From: a bacterium
GTDB taxonomy: Bacteria; Planctomycetota; J058; JAJDCP01
DNA: 11,356 bases
Direction: 5' to 3'
Assembly (NCBI GenBank): GCA_030428695.1
Contig: JAUIEM010000332.1
Coordinates: 1-11,356, forward strand
Shown here: positions 2,950 to 11,356 of the stretch, one piece after another
Layout: the number at the start of each line of letters is the position of its first letter
How positions within the stretch are numbered: position 1 is the stretch's first letter
Notes under the pieces: model-generated
Databases searched by the model: none
The model's input: only the letters and a program-made list of their open reading frames with translations
What the model was told of the DNA's origin: nothing
Made by a program: the position numbers and the translations under genes

Positions 2950-2975
2950 CGCGGGCTCGTTACCCTGTGCGTGTC

Positions 2976-2999
2976 TCCGCCCCAGGCTTCGCTGGCGGA
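2976..2999 (+). other. Short hairpin just upstream of the MTHFR-like gene's ribosome binding site
   Basis: TCCGCC (2976-2981) and GGCGGA (2994-2999) can form a six-base-pair stem with a 12-base loop, six bases before the AAAGGA ribosome binding site. It could modulate initiation, but such short GC hairpins are frequent in DNA of this composition. No recognised riboswitch pattern is visible, and the leader is too short for a SAM riboswitch. Confidence 0.2.
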
Positions 3000-3014
3000 C
3001 AGACGAAAGGAACC

Positions 3015-3920
3015 ATGGCTCGCACACCCCAACCGCCCCACGCCTCCGGCCCCGGCTGGCTCGATCGGCTCCGCGACGCGCGCGACTTCTACGCGGTCGA
3101 GCTGCGGCCGCCGCGCTCGGGATTGAGCGGGAGCGCGAGCATCGACGCCTGGATCGACCTGCAGCACGGGGTGCGCACCCTCGCCCGCGACGACTGCGCG
3201 GTGTTGTTGACCGACAACGCCGTCGGCACCCGTGAGGAAGAGAACCTCCGGCACCTGTGCGCGAACGCCGACGACACCGTCGACCGCGGGCGGCTCGTGC
3301 CGATCCTGACCTGCCTGCACAGCTTGGACTACTGCCTCGACTACGCCGCGCGTGCGCAGGCGGAGGGCTTCTCGGCCCTGGCGGTGCTCGGCGGCGACCG
3401 CACGGCGGGCATCCCGCGCTGCGTGCCGCACGCCTGGCAGCTGCGCGAGCGCATCCGCGAGCGCGCCCCCGGCCTGGCTCTCGGCGGCTGGGCGAACCCG
3501 CACCGCGATGTGCGGAGCCAGATCGACTACCTGCTCGCGGAGCGGGCCCACGTCGACTTCTTCCTGACCCAGGTGGTGTCGAGCTCGCAGCTCGGGCGGG
3601 TCGAGGCCTTCCTCGAGGCGACGGTGGGCCAGGGCCTCGAGGTGCCGGCGATGTTCGGCGTGTTCCACTACCGCAGCGCCAACCCGCGCACCCTGCGCCG
3701 GCTCGCGAGCTTCCTGCCCGTCCCCGAGGCCGAGGTCAGCGACGCCTTCGCCGCCGGGCTCTCGCCCGAAGAGCTGACCGGACGCACCCTCGCGGGGTTG
3801 CACGCGCTCGGCGTGCGCAAGCTCTACCTGTCGAACCTGCCGGCCGAGCAGCCGTCCCGGGCGTTGTCTGCGATCCTCGACGCCGCCGGCCGCTTCGGTG
3901 GAGCCTCCGTGCGCGGTTGA
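3015..3920 (+). CDS. Methylenetetrahydrofolate reductase (MetF/MTHFR) family protein
   Basis: This is a 301-residue cytoplasmic protein with the length and motif order of the single-domain, FAD-dependent TIM-barrel reductases that convert 5,10-methylene-THF to 5-methyl-THF for methionine synthesis. FYAVELRPPR (25-34) matches the family's N-terminal EFFPP strand, with E29 as the equivalent of E. coli MetF Glu28. LAVLGGDR (122-129) gives D128, equivalent to Asp120. FFLTQVVSSSQ (182-192) gives Q186, equivalent to Gln183. GGWANPHRD (157-165) corresponds to the family's A-x-x-P-x-x-H segment. The sequence otherwise diverges from classical MetF, so the substrate could differ. I chose the ATG at 3015 because AAAGGA (3006-3011) sits just before it; a GTG at 2967 would add 16 unconserved residues. 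It is transcribed away from the pilus operon and has no methionine-pathway neighbour here. Confidence 0.78.
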   Translation: MARTPQPPHASGPGWLDRLRDARDFYAVELRPPRSGLSGSASIDAWIDLQHGVRTLARDDCAVLLTDNAVGTREEENLRHLCANADDTVDRGRLVPILTCLHSLDYCLDYAARAQAEGFSALAVLGGDRTAGIPRCVPHAWQLRERIRERAPGLALGGWANPHRDVRSQIDYLLAERAHVDFFLTQVVSSSQLGRVEAFLEATVGQGLEVPAMFGVFHYRSANPRTLRRLASFLPVPEAEVSDAFAAGLSPEELTGRTLAGLHALGVRKLYLSNLPAEQPSRALSAILDAAGRFGGASVRG

Positions 3921-4232: not shown

Positions 4233-4255
4233 GGGAGGTGTGACGTGGCAGTCAC
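4233..4255 (+). promoter_or_regulatory. Strong ribosome binding site with start codon in a small hairpin loop
   Basis: GGGAGG (4233-4238) ends six bases before the GTG at 4245 and decides this start. GTGAC (4240-4244) and GTCAC (4251-4255) are complementary, so the six-base loop between them (4245-4250) is the start codon plus the next codon. Confidence 0.55.
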
Positions 4256-7200
4256 GAGAGGTCGCGCAGGCGCGATCCTGTTGTCTTTGGCGTTGGGAAT
4301 GGTCGGCTGCGGCGGCGGCTCGAGCGGTGGAGGGGGCGGAAGCGGAATCGCGATCACGACGAGCGGTCTTTCCGACGGCGCGGTCGGGACCACGTACGCC
4401 GCGACGGTGACGACGAATGCGTCCGCCGGCACGACCTTGAACTGGAACCTGATCGGCAGCCTGCCCCCGGGCCTGTCGATCGTGTACACGAACTTCGAGG
4501 CCTTCATCAGCGGCAATCCGGCCGCGGCGGGCACCTTCAACTTCACCCTCGAAGTCAGCGACGGCGGGGGAAATGACTCGCAGGCCCTGGCGATCACCAT
4601 CCTGCCCGGGCCGCCGTCCATCGTGACGACGAGCCTCAATGACGGCGTGATCAACCTCGCGTACTCCGCGCAGATCACCGCCACCGGCGGCAGCAGCGCC
4701 GGCTACACCTGGAGCGTGACGAGCGGGAGCCTGCCGCCGGGGCTGAGCCTGACCGACGGGACGCCGAGCGCGACCCTGTCCGGCACCCCGACGCAGACCG
4801 GGACCTTCAACTTCACGCTGAACCTGATCGACTCGGTCGGGCTGACCGCGTCGCAGGCCCTGTCGGTGACGATCAACAACCCCGCGCCCCTGAACATCAC
4901 GACCGTCCAGCTTCCCGGAGGGGTCGTCGGGGCGAGCTACAACGAGCTGATCACCGCCCAGGACGGCACGGTCGCCGGCTACACCTGGAGCGTGACGAGC
5001 GGCAGCCTGCCGGCCGGCCTCAGCCTGAGCAACGGGACGCCGAGCGCGACCCTGTCCGGGCAGCCGACCACCTCACAGACCTACAACTTCGACCTGACCG
5101 TCACCGATTCGGGCGGGAACATGGACACCCAGTCCTACACCGTCACGATCAACCCGGCGCTCGTGATCACGACGACCACCCTGCCGGGCGCTCTCGAGGG
5201 CTACCCCTTCAGCGAGACGATCAGCGCGACCGGAGGCACCGGCCTCAACTACGACTTCACGCTGACCGGCACGCCGCCCCCGGGGCTGAACCTGACCGAC
5301 GGCACCCCGGACGCGCTCTTCGATGGCACGCCGACCACGGCCGGCACGTACAACTTCACCATCGAGCTGATCGACTCCGAGAACAACATGACCAGCCAGG
5401 CGTACACGATGGACATCGTGCTCGGTGACCCGATCCGCCTGCGCACCTTCATCCTCCCCCACGGGCAGCAGAACCAGCCGCTGACCCTCGAGATCGAGGC
5501 TGCGGGCGGCATCGTCGGGACGGACCCGAGCTTCGCCCTCAGCAGCGGCAGCCTGCCGCCAGGGATGTCGATCACGCAGCCGAGCACCGGCTCGAAGGTC
5601 GGCTCGATCGGCGGCACGCCGACCACCCCCGGCCACTACCGCTACGCGATCGAGGTCACCGACGGCTTCAGCACCGTCGAGCACGAGTACGTGACGACCA
5701 TCGCGGTCCCCACGCGCTGGATCGTCTACCGGGCCGACCTGACGACGAGCGCCTTCGAAGAGCTGTACGCCGTCGACATCAGCACCGGCACCCCCGGGAC
5801 TCCGATCGCCCTCGACCCGATGCACGAGGTGACCGACGACTTCGAATACAAGTTCAGCTGGGACGGCAACTGGCTCTTCTACATCGGCAACGCTCCGGGG
5901 CGGGTCTACGGCATCGACATGAGCGGGCCCACGCCCGGGACGCCGGTCGAGCTGACCTCCGCGGGTCATGTCGGCGACGTCAACGCGATCCAGATCTCCC
6001 CCGACGACCGCTGGCTGGTCTACGCCGGCGACCAGGACGTGCTGAACCAGGACGAGCTGTACGCGGTCGACATCAGCGGTGGCGCGCCCTTCCCGGCGCC
6101 GATCAAGATCAGCACCGCCACGCCCCCGACCAACTCGGACGTGCTCGACGACGACATCGACCCGACCTCGTACATCCCAGGCCTGGTCTACGGCTCGCCG
6201 AGCCCGTCGACCTTCGACGGCTACGCCTTCTCGCCCGACGGCAACTGGCTGGCCTACCGCCACGACGGGATGGTCGACAACTTCATCGAGGTCTGGGTGC
6301 TCGACATGAGCGGCACGACCCCGGGGCTGCCGCAGCGGGCGATCGACCGCAACCCTCCGCACACGACGGTCGCCGAGGAGTTCTGCTGGTCGAACGACTC
6401 GCAGTGGCTCGCGATCACCGGCGACTACGAGATCGACGGTGACCTCGAGATCTACGTCGTCAACATGGACAGCATCGGCGTCGAGACCAACGTCACGGGG
6501 CCCCAGGGAGGAGGCGGATCGCTCGAGGTCATCAGCGGGGTCGGCTACTACAACTACTTCACCTTCGCCCCGGACGCGACCTCGCTCGTCTACCGCGCCG
6601 ACCCCGACGTCAGCCTGCAGTACGAGCTGTTCTTCTGCTCTCTCGCCGGCGGCACACCGATGCCGGGCGTCAAAGTCAGCGGCGGCGCGATCGGCACCAA
6701 CGAGGACGTGCTCGGCTGGGTCTACTCGCCGGACAGCCGGTATCTCGCCTACGTCTCGGACGAGCAGACCACGGACAAGAACGAGCTCTACCTGGTCAGC
6801 GTCGACGAGGGCGTGCTCGGGACGCCGACGATCATCAGCCACACGCCGGGGATCGCCGCCGCGGACGTCATCTCGTTCAGCACGACCGACCGGAATGTGG
6901 TCTGGGCCTCCTCGGACCACATCGTCTTCCGCTCGGACGGCGTCACCGACGCGGTCAACGAAGCCTTCGTCGTCGATGTCAGCGGTGGCGCGCCCTTCCC
7001 GCAGCCGGTGGCCCTGGCGCCGACCCCGGTGACCAACGGGGACGTCGGGACCGTCTGGCCCCTGCCGGACGGCGACCGGGTCGGCCTCATCGGCGACATC
7101 CTGGTCGACAACAGCCAGGATCTGTTCATCGCCTTCATCAGCAGCCCCGGCACCATCCACCGCGTCAGCAACCAGACCGGCGCCCAGACCTCGATCACCC

Positions 7201-7418
7201 TCGAGGTCGCCGACACCGCCGACAACGACGGCGGCTGCTTCCACTCCCCGAACGAGCGTCTGATGGGGATCTTCGGCGACCAGCTGACCAGCGTTGTCGA
7301 CGAGCTGTGGATCAACGACATCAGCGGGGCGCCGCCCTACCCCATGCCCGCGCAGAAGGTCAGCCCGACGAACACCAACAGCGCGCTCGATGTGTGGTCG
7401 TACCTGTTCCAGCCCTGA
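4245..7418 (+). CDS. Large surface lipoprotein: five Ig-like (He_PIG) repeats plus TolB/PD40-like beta-propeller
   Basis: This is a 1057-residue exported protein of unknown specific function. Residues 1-21 are a signal peptide (RGR, then a hydrophobic stretch) ending in MVGC, a plausible lipobox with C22 as lipidated cysteine. A Gly/Ser linker follows (23-34). Residues about 35-489 hold five tandem Ig-like domains of about 90 residues, each with the He_PIG signature of LPPGLSL, then SGTPT or a variant, then GTYNF and a DS/DG turn; the third has LPAGLSL and the fifth GGTPTTPGHY. Residues about 490-1057 hold about ten blades with the TolB/PD40 pattern SPDGNWLAY / ELYAVDIS and a recurring VDxSGGAPFPxP strand. 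I see no enzyme motif or sortase/type 9 anchor, so binding or adhesion at the outer membrane is inferred. The GTG start is chosen for its strong ribosome site. It is probably monocistronic, with a palindrome 26 bases after the stop. Confidence 0.88.
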   Translation: MAVTRGRAGAILLSLALGMVGCGGGSSGGGGGSGIAITTSGLSDGAVGTTYAATVTTNASAGTTLNWNLIGSLPPGLSIVYTNFEAFISGNPAAAGTFNFTLEVSDGGGNDSQALAITILPGPPSIVTTSLNDGVINLAYSAQITATGGSSAGYTWSVTSGSLPPGLSLTDGTPSATLSGTPTQTGTFNFTLNLIDSVGLTASQALSVTINNPAPLNITTVQLPGGVVGASYNELITAQDGTVAGYTWSVTSGSLPAGLSLSNGTPSATLSGQPTTSQTYNFDLTVTDSGGNMDTQSYTVTINPALVITTTTLPGALEGYPFSETISATGGTGLNYDFTLTGTPPPGLNLTDGTPDALFDGTPTTAGTYNFTIELIDSENNMTSQAYTMDIVLGDPIRLRTFILPHGQQNQPLTLEIEAAGGIVGTDPSFALSSGSLPPGMSITQPSTGSKVGSIGGTPTTPGHYRYAIEVTDGFSTVEHEYVTTIAVPTRWIVYRADLTTSAFEELYAVDISTGTPGTPIALDPMHEVTDDFEYKFSWDGNWLFYIGNAPGRVYGIDMSGPTPGTPVELTSAGHVGDVNAIQISPDDRWLVYAGDQDVLNQDELYAVDISGGAPFPAPIKISTATPPTNSDVLDDDIDPTSYIPGLVYGSPSPSTFDGYAFSPDGNWLAYRHDGMVDNFIEVWVLDMSGTTPGLPQRAIDRNPPHTTVAEEFCWSNDSQWLAITGDYEIDGDLEIYVVNMDSIGVETNVTGPQGGGGSLEVISGVGYYNYFTFAPDATSLVYRADPDVSLQYELFFCSLAGGTPMPGVKVSGGAIGTNEDVLGWVYSPDSRYLAYVSDEQTTDKNELYLVSVDEGVLGTPTIISHTPGIAAADVISFSTTDRNVVWASSDHIVFRSDGVTDAVNEAFVVDVSGGAPFPQPVALAPTPVTNGDVGTVWPLPDGDRVGLIGDILVDNSQDLFIAFISSPGTIHRVSNQTGAQTSITLEVADTADNDGGCFHSPNERLMGIFGDQLTSVVDELWINDISGAPPYPMPAQKVSPTNTNSALDVWSYLFQP
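4698..4783 (+). repeat. In-frame tandem repeat unit, copy 1 (Ig-like domain 2)
   Basis: This 86-base segment is nearly identical to 4974-5059 (about seven mismatches by my count), offset by 276 bases or 92 codons, which is one Ig-like domain. Both ends of the segment are exact matches, and both copies encode the AGYTWSVTSGSLP...GTPSATLSG portion. Confidence 0.85.
4974..5059 (+). repeat. In-frame tandem repeat unit, copy 2 (Ig-like domain 3)
   Basis: Second copy of the 86-base segment at 4698-4783. Domains 4 and 5 encode similar protein but do not share this DNA identity, so domains 2 and 3 look like the most recent duplication or gene-conversion pair. Confidence 0.85.
6074..6095 (+). repeat. 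22-base exact in-frame repeat, copy 1 (propeller blade strand)
   Basis: This is identical to 6980-7001, offset by 906 bases (302 codons). It encodes the SGGAPFP part of the recurring blade motif. A third, diverged version encoding SGAPPYP occurs near 7321-7341. Confidence 0.85.
6980..7001 (+). repeat. 22-base exact in-frame repeat, copy 2 (propeller blade strand)
   Basis: Second copy of the segment at 6074-6095, placed in a blade three to five blades later. Exact DNA identity over 22 bases points to exchange between blades or strong constraint. Confidence 0.85.
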
Positions 7419-7605: not shown

Positions 7606-7641
7606 GTTCCGTCCTCGGTTCGGGTGTGTTCCGTTTGGGTT

Positions 7642-7677
7642 CCAGGAGCGGCGGAAACGGCCGTCCGCACGTCCTGG
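7642..7677. other. Imperfect hairpin in the divergent intergenic region
   Basis: CCAGGA (7642-7647) pairs with TCCTGG (7672-7677). Inside it GCGGCGG can pair with CCG-T-CCGC (one bulged T), leaving a six-base loop. About 13 pairs form in total, with an unpaired ACG on the right arm. It lies between the small ORF and the CNNM gene, and could be an operator or leader structure for either. High GC content makes chance pairing fairly likely. Confidence 0.3.
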
Positions 7678-7702
7678 GAGGAGAGGAAGCAAACGGTGTT
7701 CC

Positions 7703-7731
7703 TTGCAGTCCTCCCGCCGATGCCGGAGAAT
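7703..7731 (+). promoter_or_regulatory. Weak candidate promoter of the CNNM operon
   Basis: TTGCAG (7703-7708) and GAGAAT (7726-7731) are spaced by 17 bases, matching the consensus at three and four positions. Transcription would start near 7738, giving a leader of about 26 bases before the GTG at 7764. Confidence 0.22.
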
Positions 7732-7763
7732 GGGCGCCTTCCTTTTCAGCGCGGGAGCCCCGG

Positions 7764-9005
7764 GTGGACTGGCTGGTCGAGCTTCCCACGATCATCCTGC
7801 TCGTCATGTGTCTCGTCTGCAGCGCCAGCTTCTCCGGCTCGGAGACCGCGCTGTTCTCGATCGACGAGGAGAAACAGAAGCGCCTGCGCAGCGGCTCGGC
7901 CCTCGAGCGCGCGGTCGCAGCCCTGCTCGCCCAGCCGCAGGCGCTGCTGGTCACGATCCTGCTCTGCAACCTGGTCGTCAACGTCCTGTACTTCAGCGCC
8001 TCCGCGACGCTGGCCGGGCGCCTCGAGCATCCGGGCATCGCGACCGCCGCCAACGTCGGCTGCTTCCTCCTGCTGCTGGTCTTCGGCGAGGTCGTCCCGA
8101 AGTCGATCGCGATCAACATGCCGCTGCGCATCGCCAAGCTCGCGGTCTACCCGCTGCGCCTGCTCGTGCTCGCGATGCGGCCCCTGCGCTGGGTGCTCGA
8201 GTCGCTGACGGAGGCGCTGAGCCAGCCCCTGTTCCGGCGCCTGAAGAACGCAGAGATGACCGCCGAGGACCTGCACCAGCTGGTCGAGATGATCGCCCAG
8301 GGAGGGGAGCTCAGCGTCTCGGAGAACACCTTCATGCGCCGCGTGCTCGAGCTGCGGCACGTCAAGGTGCGGGAGCTGATGGTGCCGCGGGTCGACCTGC
8401 CCTTCTTCGACATCACGGCCGGCCGCAAGGCCTACCTCGAGCTGCTCGCGCGCACGCGCCAGCGGGCGACCGTGGCCTACCGCGGCGATCCGGAGGACGT
8501 CGTCGGGGTCATCCTCGCCAAGAACGTGCTGTTCGGTGAGCTCGAGCCGGTCGAGGCGGTCAGCCGGGTGCGCTTCGTGCCCGAGCTGAAGCGGGTCGAC
8601 CAGCTCCTGCGCCAGTTCCGCGATGAGAAGATCGCGCGCGCCCTGGTCGTCGACGAGTACGGCACCGTCGCCGGCTTGATCACGATCGAGAACCTGCTCG
8701 AGTGGGTGGTCGGCAATATCGCCAACGAGTTCGAGACCGTCACGCCACCGGTGCGCACCGACGACGCGGGGCGTTGGATCCTGCGCGGCGACCTGCCGGT
8801 GCGGCTGTGGCGCGAGCTGATGGGCACCGAGCTCGACATCCCCCAGGACGTCGACACCCTCGGCGGGCTGATCGCCCACCTCTCCGGGACGATTCCCGAG
8901 GCCGGGGACAAGGTCCGGCACGGCAAGCTCTGCTTCACCGTGCGCTCGGTCAAGAAGGGGCGCATCCTCGAGGCCGCCCTCGATCCGGTCAAGGAGGACG
9001 AGTGA
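7764..9005 (+). CDS. CNNM/CBS/CorC_HlyC membrane protein, probable Mg2+ transporter or efflux protein
   Basis: This is a 413-residue inner-membrane protein of the CorC/HlyC (hemolysin C-like) family, whose bacterial members move Mg2+ (often with Na+) and sense nucleotide through CBS domains. Residues about 1-180 form the CNNM (DUF21) transmembrane domain with the metal-site motifs SGSETALF (24-31), N69/N73 in LLCNLVVNV, and GEVVPK (108-113, E109). A CBS pair covers about 203-317, including VVDEYG (295-300) and the family's LITIENLLEWVVG run. Residues about 337-407 form the CorC_HlyC domain (WILRGDLPV to the GRILEA strand). The GTG at 7764 is chosen because GGGAG (7753-7757) sits six bases before it and the protein then starts at the first membrane helix; an upstream GTG at 7626 adds 46 non-family residues. 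It is coupled to the next gene. Confidence 0.92.
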   Translation: MDWLVELPTIILLVMCLVCSASFSGSETALFSIDEEKQKRLRSGSALERAVAALLAQPQALLVTILLCNLVVNVLYFSASATLAGRLEHPGIATAANVGCFLLLLVFGEVVPKSIAINMPLRIAKLAVYPLRLLVLAMRPLRWVLESLTEALSQPLFRRLKNAEMTAEDLHQLVEMIAQGGELSVSENTFMRRVLELRHVKVRELMVPRVDLPFFDITAGRKAYLELLARTRQRATVAYRGDPEDVVGVILAKNVLFGELEPVEAVSRVRFVPELKRVDQLLRQFRDEKIARALVVDEYGTVAGLITIENLLEWVVGNIANEFETVTPPVRTDDAGRWILRGDLPVRLWRELMGTELDIPQDVDTLGGLIAHLSGTIPEAGDKVRHGKLCFTVRSVKKGRILEAALDPVKEDE

Positions 9006-9982
9006 TGGAGCCGGTGATCCTCCTCATCTCCCTCGTCTGCGGCATCCTCCTCGCCGGCTTCTACGCGGGCATCGAGACCGGCACCTACGGCCTGAACCGC
9101 ATGCGCCTGCGCCTGCACAGCGAACGCGGCGAGGCCGCGGCGATCTCGCTCAGCACGCTGATGCGCCGGCCGGAGACCGTGATCGCGACCGCGCTCGTCG
9201 GGCACAACCTCGCGGTCTGGTTCACGACCAGCCTGACCACCCTGATCTTCTCCGGGCTCTCGCCGGGCAACGCCGAGCTCCTGACCAGCGCGACGCTCAG
9301 CCCGATCCTGTTCGTGTTCGCCGAGGTCGTCCCCAAGGAGCTCTACCGGCGCCAGGCCGAGGTGCTCTCCTACGACTCCGCGCGGGTGCTCTGGATCTCG
9401 GCCCGGGCCTTCGCCCTGCCGGTCGCGGCGCTGCGCGCGGTCGCCCTCGGCATGGCGAAGCTGATCGGGGCCCAGGAGCGCATGCCGGAGCAGGTCTTCT
9501 CCCGGGTGCGTCTGCTCAGCTCCCTCGGCGAGGGGCGGGCAGTCGGCGTGCTGACCGCGTTCCAGAGCGAGCTCGCCCACAACATCGTCGAGCTGCGTGA
9601 CCAGAGCCTGAAGGCCGTGATGGTCCCGCTCGAGGAGGTCGCGCTGCTGCCGAACACCAAGACCCGGGACGAAGCGCAACAGCTCGCGCGGGAGCGACGC
9701 TTCTTCCGCTACCCCGTGTACCGCGGGAAGCCGGAAAACATCGTCGGCATCGTCAACATCGTCGACCTGTGGGTCGACGACAGGCCGGGCCTGACGATCC
9801 GCAACTACATCCGCGAGGTGCCGAAGGTGCACGAGGGCGCCGGCATCGAAGAGGCTCTCGCGGCCATCCGCGCCGCCCGCCAGCCGCTCGCCATCGTGAT
9901 CGACGGCGAAGACCGGGCTCTCGGCATCGTGACCGCCAAGGACCTGCTCGAGGAGATCACGGGCGAGCTGGAGAGCTTCTGA
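9005..9982 (+). CDS. Second CNNM/CBS membrane protein, lacking the CorC_HlyC domain
   Basis: This is a 325-residue paralogue of the preceding protein. Residues 1-180 form a CNNM transmembrane domain and about 202-321 a CBS pair (RYPVYRGKPENIVGIVN at 235-251, GIVTAKDLLEEITG at 307-320). The protein ends directly after the CBS pair, so the CorC_HlyC domain is absent. The usual S-x-S-E-T metal motif reads AGIETG (21-26), losing both serines. GEVVPK reads AEVVPK (106-111), keeping the glutamate, and the Asn of LVGHNLA (N68) is kept. Its ATG overlaps the previous stop (TGATG at 9003-9007) with GGAGG (8992-8996) seven bases before, a strong coupling signal. CNNM proteins are dimers, so a heterodimer with the upstream partner is inferred; an accessory or regulatory subunit is plausible. 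Its last 26 bases overlap the convergent gene. Confidence 0.9.
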   Translation: MEPVILLISLVCGILLAGFYAGIETGTYGLNRMRLRLHSERGEAAAISLSTLMRRPETVIATALVGHNLAVWFTTSLTTLIFSGLSPGNAELLTSATLSPILFVFAEVVPKELYRRQAEVLSYDSARVLWISARAFALPVAALRAVALGMAKLIGAQERMPEQVFSRVRLLSSLGEGRAVGVLTAFQSELAHNIVELRDQSLKAVMVPLEEVALLPNTKTRDEAQQLARERRFFRYPVYRGKPENIVGIVNIVDLWVDDRPGLTIRNYIREVPKVHEGAGIEEALAAIRAARQPLAIVIDGEDRALGIVTAKDLLEEITGELESF

Positions 9983-11356
9983 GCAGCGCCCGCACGACCT
10001 CCCGGTACAGCCCGACGGTGCGGCGGCTCTTCTCCAGCGGGAGCAGGCCGTCCTCGACGTTGAGCGCCGGCGAGCTGTTGACCTCGAGCACGATGCCCTC
10101 GGCCTCTTCGGGGGCCGCCGTCGGCTCCTCGAGCAGCAGGTCGACCCCCGCCAGCCGCAGGCGCAGAGCCGCGGCAGCGCGCAGGGCGACGTCCCGCCAG
10201 CCCGGATCGAGCGCGATCGCCAGGCGCCGTCCGCCGAGGCTGACGCTGCGGGCCGCGCTGAGCTCGAGCCGCTCCCCGTCGGCGAGCACGCGATCCCCCG
10301 CCGGGCCGTGCAGGAGGGCGTCGAGGTCGGCGAGCTTGCGCAGCCGCCGGTTGCGCTCGAGCTTCTCCACGAGCAGCTCCCGCACCGTCCGCGCGCCGTC
10401 GCCGCGCAGGGCCGCGGCGCGCCGCTCGTAGCAGGCGAGCACCCGGCCGTCGAGGATCAGCACGCGCACGTCGCGCCAGGGGTAGAAGGGCTGGACGAGC
10501 ACCGGTCGGTAGATGCTGGCCGCGAACAGGCGGTCGACGTGGGCCTGCAGCGGCTCCATCGCCGAGAAGAAGCCGACGCCGCTGCCCTGGGAGCCAGCGT
10601 TGGGCTTGACGACGACCTGCCCGAAGTCGGCGAGGGCGGCGCGGAGGCTGCCGGGGATGTCCTGCCCCGGCGTCTGGAAGGGATTCTCGATCAGCCGGGA
10701 GCCGGCGACCGGCAGCCCCTCGCAGGCGAGCACCTCCTCGCAGGCCTGCTTGTCGCGCGCGAGCTTGGCGGAGGTGATGCAGTTGAGGTCGTAGTGGTTC
10801 TTCGCGTAGGGCAGCTCGCCACCGTCCCAGGTCCAGCGCCCGAACAGCCGGGTCGAGGTGGGATGCACCCGGATCTCGGCGGGAACCTCCGCCAGCAGCG
10901 CGAGCGACAGCCGCCGCCGGCAGCCGGGCAGACCCTCGAGCGCGGCGGTGTCGGGGTCGCGCGCGGCGGGCAGGTCGAGCGCCTCCTCGAGCCCCGCCCC
11001 GAGGAACAGCGAGCCGAGCACCCAGGTCGGCCGCGCCGGGTCGGTCGCCGCCAGCGCCGCCCGGAGATCGGGAGCCACCGTCGCCGCCCGCGGGCACAGC
11101 GCGGCGAGCTCTTCCGGGGCCGCCGCCCGCGGGTGCTCCGCGCGGGTCAGGACCAGGCCCTCGAGCGGCGCCTCGGCGAGCAGCGCGAGCATGCCGGCGG
11201 CGTCCTTGCCGCGCCCGCAGCCGAAGATCACCTGGGCGCCAGGAGCCCGGCGCGCCAGCTCGCCGAGCACCGCCCGCAGCGCCGACGGGTTGTGCGCCCC
11301 GTCGCGCACGATCTCCCGCTCCCCGGGCAGGCGCTCGAGCCGGCCGGGCCAGCGGG
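9957..11356 (-). CDS. FolC-like Mur ligase C-terminal domain fused to CphA-like ATP-grasp ligase (partial, N-terminus outside window)
   Basis: This gene runs off the right edge; 465 codons are visible. Residues are numbered from the in-frame GTG at 11309, which is not the true start. Before it, WPGRLERLPGEREI reads on, and DGAHNPSA (3-10), the GRGKDAAGML segment (32-41), LTRAEHPRAA and WVLGSLFLG (96-104) match the C-terminal domain of folylpolyglutamate/dihydrofolate synthase. From about 150 on it resembles the ATP-grasp domain of cyanophycin synthetase: ITSAKLARDKQACEEVL, VVVKPNAGSQGSGVGFF (232-248, K235 as ATP lysine), DVRVLILDGRV, ALRGDGARTVRELL, GDRVLADGERLEL, SLGGRRLAIALDP, AGVDLL, and LEVNSSP (408-414, metal ligands E409 and N411). 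Both domains make amide bonds to amino acids using ATP, by acyl-phosphate chemistry. CphA has the opposite order, so this is not CphA. The substrate is unknown; a gamma- or alpha-linked amino-acid ligase on folate or a peptide is inference. The stop (9957-9959) lies inside the convergent CNNM gene. Confidence 0.85.
   Translation of the reverse strand, partial: RWPGRLERLPGEREIVRDGAHNPSALRAVLGELARRAPGAQVIFGCGRGKDAAGMLALLAEAPLEGLVLTRAEHPRAAAPEELAALCPRAATVAPDLRAALAATDPARPTWVLGSLFLGAGLEEALDLPAARDPDTAALEGLPGCRRRLSLALLAEVPAEIRVHPTSTRLFGRWTWDGGELPYAKNHYDLNCITSAKLARDKQACEEVLACEGLPVAGSRLIENPFQTPGQDIPGSLRAALADFGQVVVKPNAGSQGSGVGFFSAMEPLQAHVDRLFAASIYRPVLVQPFYPWRDVRVLILDGRVLACYERRAAALRGDGARTVRELLVEKLERNRRLRKLADLDALLHGPAGDRVLADGERLELSAARSVSLGGRRLAIALDPGWRDVALRAAAALRLRLAGVDLLLEEPTAAPEEAEGIVLEVNSSPALNVEDGLLPLEKSRRTVGLYREVVRALLRSSPARP

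Follow-up and report, generated by a model that had tools for sequence, protein, structure and literature searches.

The minus strand of contig JAUIEM010000332.1 (GenBank assembly GCA_030428695.1, from a bacterium of the Planctomycetota), which we analysed over its full 11,356 nucleotides (hereafter the window), carries at its right-hand end the 3' part of a gene in which a FolC-type Mur ligase is joined in one chain to an ATP-grasp ligase. This is a new domain architecture built from known ligase families, and we give an even chance to the reading that the protein is a bifunctional folate-tail synthetase, the substrate and linkage of which we infer.

A FolC ligase continuous with an ATP-grasp domain

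The minus-strand frame 9957..11354 is open over 465 codons and is cut by the right end of the window; its earliest in-frame start-like codon, a GTG (open reading frame 9957..11309), is located within the conserved C-terminal domain of FolC, and the real start of the fusion is therefore beyond the window. A previous interpretation of this DNA (the sequence-only reading) had described a FolC C-terminal part running into an ATP-grasp in one open frame, and Pfam indeed recognizes both in this protein: PF02875 (Mur_ligase_C) at residues 4-109 (46.8 bits, cut-off 28.4) and PF08443 (RimK-like ATP-grasp) in two stretches, the best at 199-314 (43.1 bits, cut-off 21). All of the motifs it had quoted (WPGRLE, DGAHNP, GSLFLG, KPNAGSQGSG, DVRVLILDG, GDGARTV and LEVNSSP) are present. 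The gene is divided as follows, where pLDDT is the predicted local distance difference test and P0001 a second fusion protein described below:

9957..11354, minus strand: FolC/ATP-grasp fusion gene, 3' part; 465 codons and a stop, the 5' half lying beyond the window
10989..11354, minus strand: FolC C-terminal (glutamate ligase) domain, residues 1-122, with WPGR, DGAHNP and GSLFL (from Mur_ligase_C and TIGR01499)
10926..10988, minus strand: short inter-domain linker, residues 123-143 (from pLDDT and the P0001 alignment)
10776..10925, minus strand: ATP-grasp N-terminal subdomain, residues 144-193, one helix and three strands (from the model)
9975..10775, minus strand: ATP-grasp core, residues 194-460, with K202, K250, R297, R311, D405, E424 and N426 (from PF08443, AlphaFold2 and residue mapping)
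10248..10418, minus strand: G-omega-type insertion, residues ~313-369, GDGARTVRELL... (from alignments including TeCphA1)

The same architecture recurs in P0001, a protein of 781 residues that is 64% identical to window residues 2-465 with 7 gaps in 470 columns, junction included; the linker (123-143) aligns gap-free. Its domain order is FolC (36-435) and then ATP-grasp, and the FolC N-terminal half, which in the window gene would lie beyond the edge, is present. The expectation that a FolC N-terminal P-loop domain precedes in frame is hence borne out in P0001, whereas in the window gene that part is out of view. Because the junction recurs in P0001 and GC content at third codon positions is even across it (0.90-1.00 in all nine blocks of 50 codons, codons 1-450), the fusion is not a frameshift, chimera or assembly error, the explanation that the sequence-only reading had named as its own refutation. 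That the window ends within the gene would leave room for an artefact joining two genes, but such an artefact is refuted unless both assemblies share the error, a chance that we regard as negligible.

FolC-first fusions with an ATP-grasp domain seem to be rare, with two members found in the searches made. Three protein searches returned at least 5, at least 9 and at least 9 matches out of 7996, 7996 and 7990 candidates scored, with P0001 in each; among the matches listed, it was the sole other FolC-first fusion. Two further proteins (P0019 and P0020) join both domain types in the order of the cyanophycin synthetase CphA. Pattern scans of genome contigs (285 and 71 matches) and of viral contigs (55 matches) gave no confirmed fusion; these scans rest on a few short peptides that divergent relatives would escape, and the real spread may be wider. 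None of the 210 plasmid and 26 phage records matched by P0001 in tblastn reached 80% query coverage, the matches being confined to the FolC half in the best 20 plasmid and best 10 phage records. In open-licence PubMed Central literature we found no paper on a FolC/ATP-grasp fusion.

Both halves retain the residues expected of active ligases

FolC attaches gamma-linked glutamates to pteroate and folate. Judged from profile and residue comparisons, the FolC half is a dihydrofolate/folylpolyglutamate synthetase (FPGS), complete in P0001 and represented in the window by its C-terminal domain only. P0001 scores 298.3 bits against TIGR01499 (folC; cut-off 162.65) over model positions 1-396 of 400; the window fragment, the gene being cut, scores 50.3 bits over positions 266-396 only, and its own membership follows from its 64% identity to P0001. 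All 13 Lactobacillus casei FPGS positions compared (T47, K50, G51, S52, S73, E143, D151, H170, K185, R300, D313, H316 and S412), which we take to represent the P-loop, the carbamylated lysine, the Mg ligands and the glutamate site, are identical in P0001, and the four that lie in the window (R, D, H and S, read from the translation) are also kept. Relative to known FolC enzymes (TIGR01499; L. casei FPGS, 1fgs; Thermotoga FPGS, 1o5z), the fusion adds a C-terminal ATP-grasp of ~315 residues and the linker, an extension that the searches made here turned up in no FolC other than P0001. A whole-protein VIA fold comparison of the P0001 model was uninformative on the added part, since the 50 rows listed all fell on the FolC half (model 1-447); model residues 442-501 have pLDDT <50.

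The ATP-grasp half is, as far as alignment and modelling indicate, complete and has its catalytic residues. An AlphaFold2 model of window residues 126-465 has a mean pLDDT of 84.3 and a predicted template modelling score of 0.83, and the structure prediction that the sequence-only reading had proposed returned an ATP-grasp fold. Most of the linker is at pLDDT <50 without secondary structure, and the N-terminal subdomain (144-193) has block pLDDT values of 62-78; the stretch matching P0001 442-501 is only moderately resolved. The majority of VIA alignments with ATP-grasp enzymes begin around model residue 12-20 and hence take in this subdomain. In two fold comparisons, the 50 rows listed in each were ATP-grasp enzymes or multidomain proteins containing one (alignment A4, which misplaced the FolC C-termini, was left out of the fold work). 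Together with the fold, the retention of K202, K250, D405, E424 and N426 places the domain in the ATP-grasp superfamily, and both fusion members keep the ATP- and Mg-binding residues that were mapped. Relatives of this domain phosphorylate an acceptor carboxylate and then attach an amino acid to it.

The ATP-grasp domain lies outside the named families

CphA is both the best-scoring named family and the best fold match of the ATP-grasp domain, and to this extent its description in the sequence-only reading as a cyanophycin-synthetase type stands. Its scores against TIGR02068 (CphA), at 83 bits for the window fragment and 98.6 for full-length P0001, are nevertheless about one-tenth of the cut-off of 850. 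Mapping onto TeCphA1 found 7 of 12 positions kept (K220, K261, R309, R323, S396, D431 and E450) and 5 changed (E215K, H267Q, N394S, G456A and R458N); the window equivalents of E215, H267, N394 and R458 are K197, Q256, S370 and N432, and P0001 shares the changes at H267, N394, G456 and R458. According to a section of PMC9427784, the changed positions include aspartate/primer recognition residues and a loop histidine contrasted with GshF. The histidine is absent from all seven CphA-like rows of our alignment, one of which (P0014) also has Ser at the position of Asn394; these residues are thus characteristic of CphA1 itself but not of all CphA-like proteins.

The architecture differs as well. CphA1 (TIGR02068; 7wac, 7lg5) has the order N domain, ATP-grasp and MurE-like ligase, whereas in the fusion the Mur half comes first, is FolC instead of MurE-like, and has no CphA N domain ahead of it, the FolC match of P0001 beginning at residue 36; the "reverse domain order" that had been claimed relative to CphA is literally true. 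The G-omega insertion is common to the fusion and CphA, and the RimK rows are without it. A permuted CphA is ruled out by cut-off, domain order, residues, fold and tree.

The domain likewise falls short of the RimK family of alpha-L-glutamate ligases, scoring 53.6 bits (window) and 63.7 (P0001) against TIGR00768 (cut-off 143.4), although it passes the broader PF08443. In an IQ-TREE maximum-likelihood tree of 20 ATP-grasp domains (199 core columns), the two fusion domains stand alone on their own long branch, separate from that of RimK and its family; they fall outside a clade of CphA-like and N-acetylglutaminylglutamine-synthetase domains (98% ultrafast bootstrap) and outside the RimK clade (97%). 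In an earlier FastTree analysis of 16 sequences the fusion had come out on the side of RimK (support 0.960), and the position suggested by these trees is unsettled. We do not claim RimK membership, the domain being below the cut-off and, in IQ-TREE, outside the clade despite the FastTree placement. Membership of the CphA family accordingly fails on cut-off, clade and the recognition residues of TeCphA1.

A relative, P0015 (654 residues), apparently contains two tandem ATP-grasp domains, the second of which scores 172 bits against CphA and 142.6 against GshAB.

A possible two-step synthesis of the folate tail

We hypothesize that the two halves would act in sequence on one substrate. The FolC half would place one or more gamma-linked glutamates on pteroate or folate, and its product, with free alpha- and gamma-carboxylates at the tip, would serve as acceptor for the ATP-grasp, which would phosphorylate a tip carboxylate and join a further amino acid, thereby extending or capping the tail. 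The added residue would most likely be glutamate, attached through the alpha-carboxylate, and the fusion would hand the tail between active sites and fix the ratio of both activities. This division of labour would resemble that of CofE and then CofF in the synthesis of coenzyme F420, where we infer the same logic of gamma-glutamates followed by a terminal alpha-linked glutamate from a second ligase, although CofE and CofF are separate enzymes, unlike the one-chain fusion. Passages in the literature describe CofF as capping the gamma-linked F420 tail with a terminal alpha-linked glutamate (PMC8498797), MptN as extending the tail of the pterin cofactor tetrahydrosarcinapterin with glutamate at an alpha-carboxylate (PMC8141765), and CofE as belonging to COG1478, outside the FolC family (part of PMC1971073).

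Several observations weigh against this hypothesis. CphA, the nearest named family, adds aspartate and is not of the RimK/MptN/CofF type, and scores against the two families that would be its closest functional models are low: 13.0 bits (window) and 19.6 (P0001) for CofF (TIGR04443, cut-off 300), and 39.9 and 45.5 for MptN (NF040720, cut-off 350). S370 stands where 12 of the 14 rows other than the fusions have Asn, and because of this change, and because the domain is in neither the RimK nor the CphA clade, specificity cannot be read off the sequence. The P-loop Gln is common to the fusion and the three rows scoring above the RimK-family cut-off; it also occurs in the N-acetylglutaminylglutamine synthetase P0017 and is thus not RimK-specific. 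The known members are two, and the window itself covers only the FolC C-terminal part. Domain fusion hints at a shared substrate without proving it.

Among the alternatives, a distinctly smaller probability attaches to mere joint expression or channelling, in which ordinary folates would come from the FolC half and the ATP-grasp would serve an unrelated acceptor, such as a dipeptide, by analogy with the synthesis of N-acetylglutaminylglutamine or glutathione, or, like RimK, a protein tail. The CphA-type insertion is compatible with this, as is the slightly higher score of the window fragment against GshAB (NF002688, 60.3 bits; P0001, 53.1) and N-acetylglutaminylglutamine synthetase (TIGR03103, 58.7 bits; P0001, 55.5) than against the RimK family (53.6 bits); however, these values are far below the respective cut-offs of 425, 569 and 143.4, the junction is conserved in both members, and there is no known reason to fuse such an enzyme to FolC.

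Somewhat less likely again is a two-headed ligase in which the FolC-like half has switched substrate and both domains act on another acceptor (a peptide, cofactor or storage polymer). CphA, in which an ATP-grasp and a Mur ligase work on one growing chain (as a section of PMC9427784 describes), is a precedent, and acceptors among Mur-family ligases are varied (as noted in part of PMC11915815); against this, the FolC half exceeds the folC cut-off and keeps 13 of 13 FPGS positions, the TeCphA1 aspartate/primer recognition residues are changed, and in P0001 the stretch ahead of FolC is too short for the CphA N domain. That the protein is a normal FolC, its ATP-grasp tail being regulatory or catalytically idle, is improbable, as the ATP- and Mg-binding residues are kept in both members, which would be unlikely for a dead domain at 66% identity. 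The proposal of the sequence-only reading as a whole, that of a ligase adding two amino acids or linkage types to one acceptor, is partly supported.

Returning to the folate-tail synthetase, the presence of FolC and a carboxylate-activating amino-acid ligase in one protein suggests the coupling of two tail-building chemistries. Folate tails affect the retention and use of folates, and E. coli folates have been reported with alpha linkages in the distal tail (both in portions of PMC1971073, the latter citing Ferone 1986). In open-licence PubMed Central literature we found no gene named for alpha-linked folate tails. The title of Ferone 1986 refers to synthesis in vitro with an enzyme preparation. 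It is a tentative and rather doubtful extension of our hypothesis that the fusion is a one-chain folylpoly-gamma/alpha-glutamate synthetase, possibly the first gene-level candidate for an enzyme that extends the folate tail with amino acids in alpha linkage (or different in some other way). As a "Rosetta stone", it would then point to stand-alone ATP-grasp ligases as the source of the folylpoly-alpha-glutamate synthetase activity described biochemically in E. coli in 1986. The fusion, one clonable protein, is a testable lead to a gene for alpha-linked tails. CphA and GshF are precedents of ATP-grasp ligases paired in one chain with another ligase (as stated in a passage of PMC9427784); in GshF/GshAB (3ln6) the partner is a glutamate-cysteine ligase, whereas in the fusion it is a Mur ligase. 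If the hypothesis is true, a new two-headed ligase architecture would stand beside these two, with a possible use in making mixed-linkage peptides.

Other genes in the window

Nothing in the window matches Rfam at the gathering threshold, and repeats near the fusion gene are, in our judgement, only the short imperfect ones expected of GC-rich coding DNA. For a 317-residue frame (2967-3917, plus strand), Pfam (E<=10) and NCBIfam (0.01) gave no match and the best PDB match (E 0.041) was unconvincing; by eye its product recalls a methylenetetrahydrofolate-reductase-like barrel, which nothing confirmed. On the minus strand, a pilus/type II secretion ATPase gene (473-2179; MshEN and T2SSE) is directly preceded by a gene for a shorter protein (2183-2881) whose Pfam matches include MshEN but no ATPase domain. 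A plus-strand gene (4245-7418) encodes 1057 residues with a lipoprotein-like start (by eye), five Ig-like He_PIG stretches and then a PD40-type beta-propeller match. Two adjacent plus-strand genes (7626-9005 and 9005-9982) encode CNNM/CBS membrane proteins, the second without a CorC_HlyC match; this second gene is convergent with the 3' end of the fusion gene and overlaps it by 26 bases.
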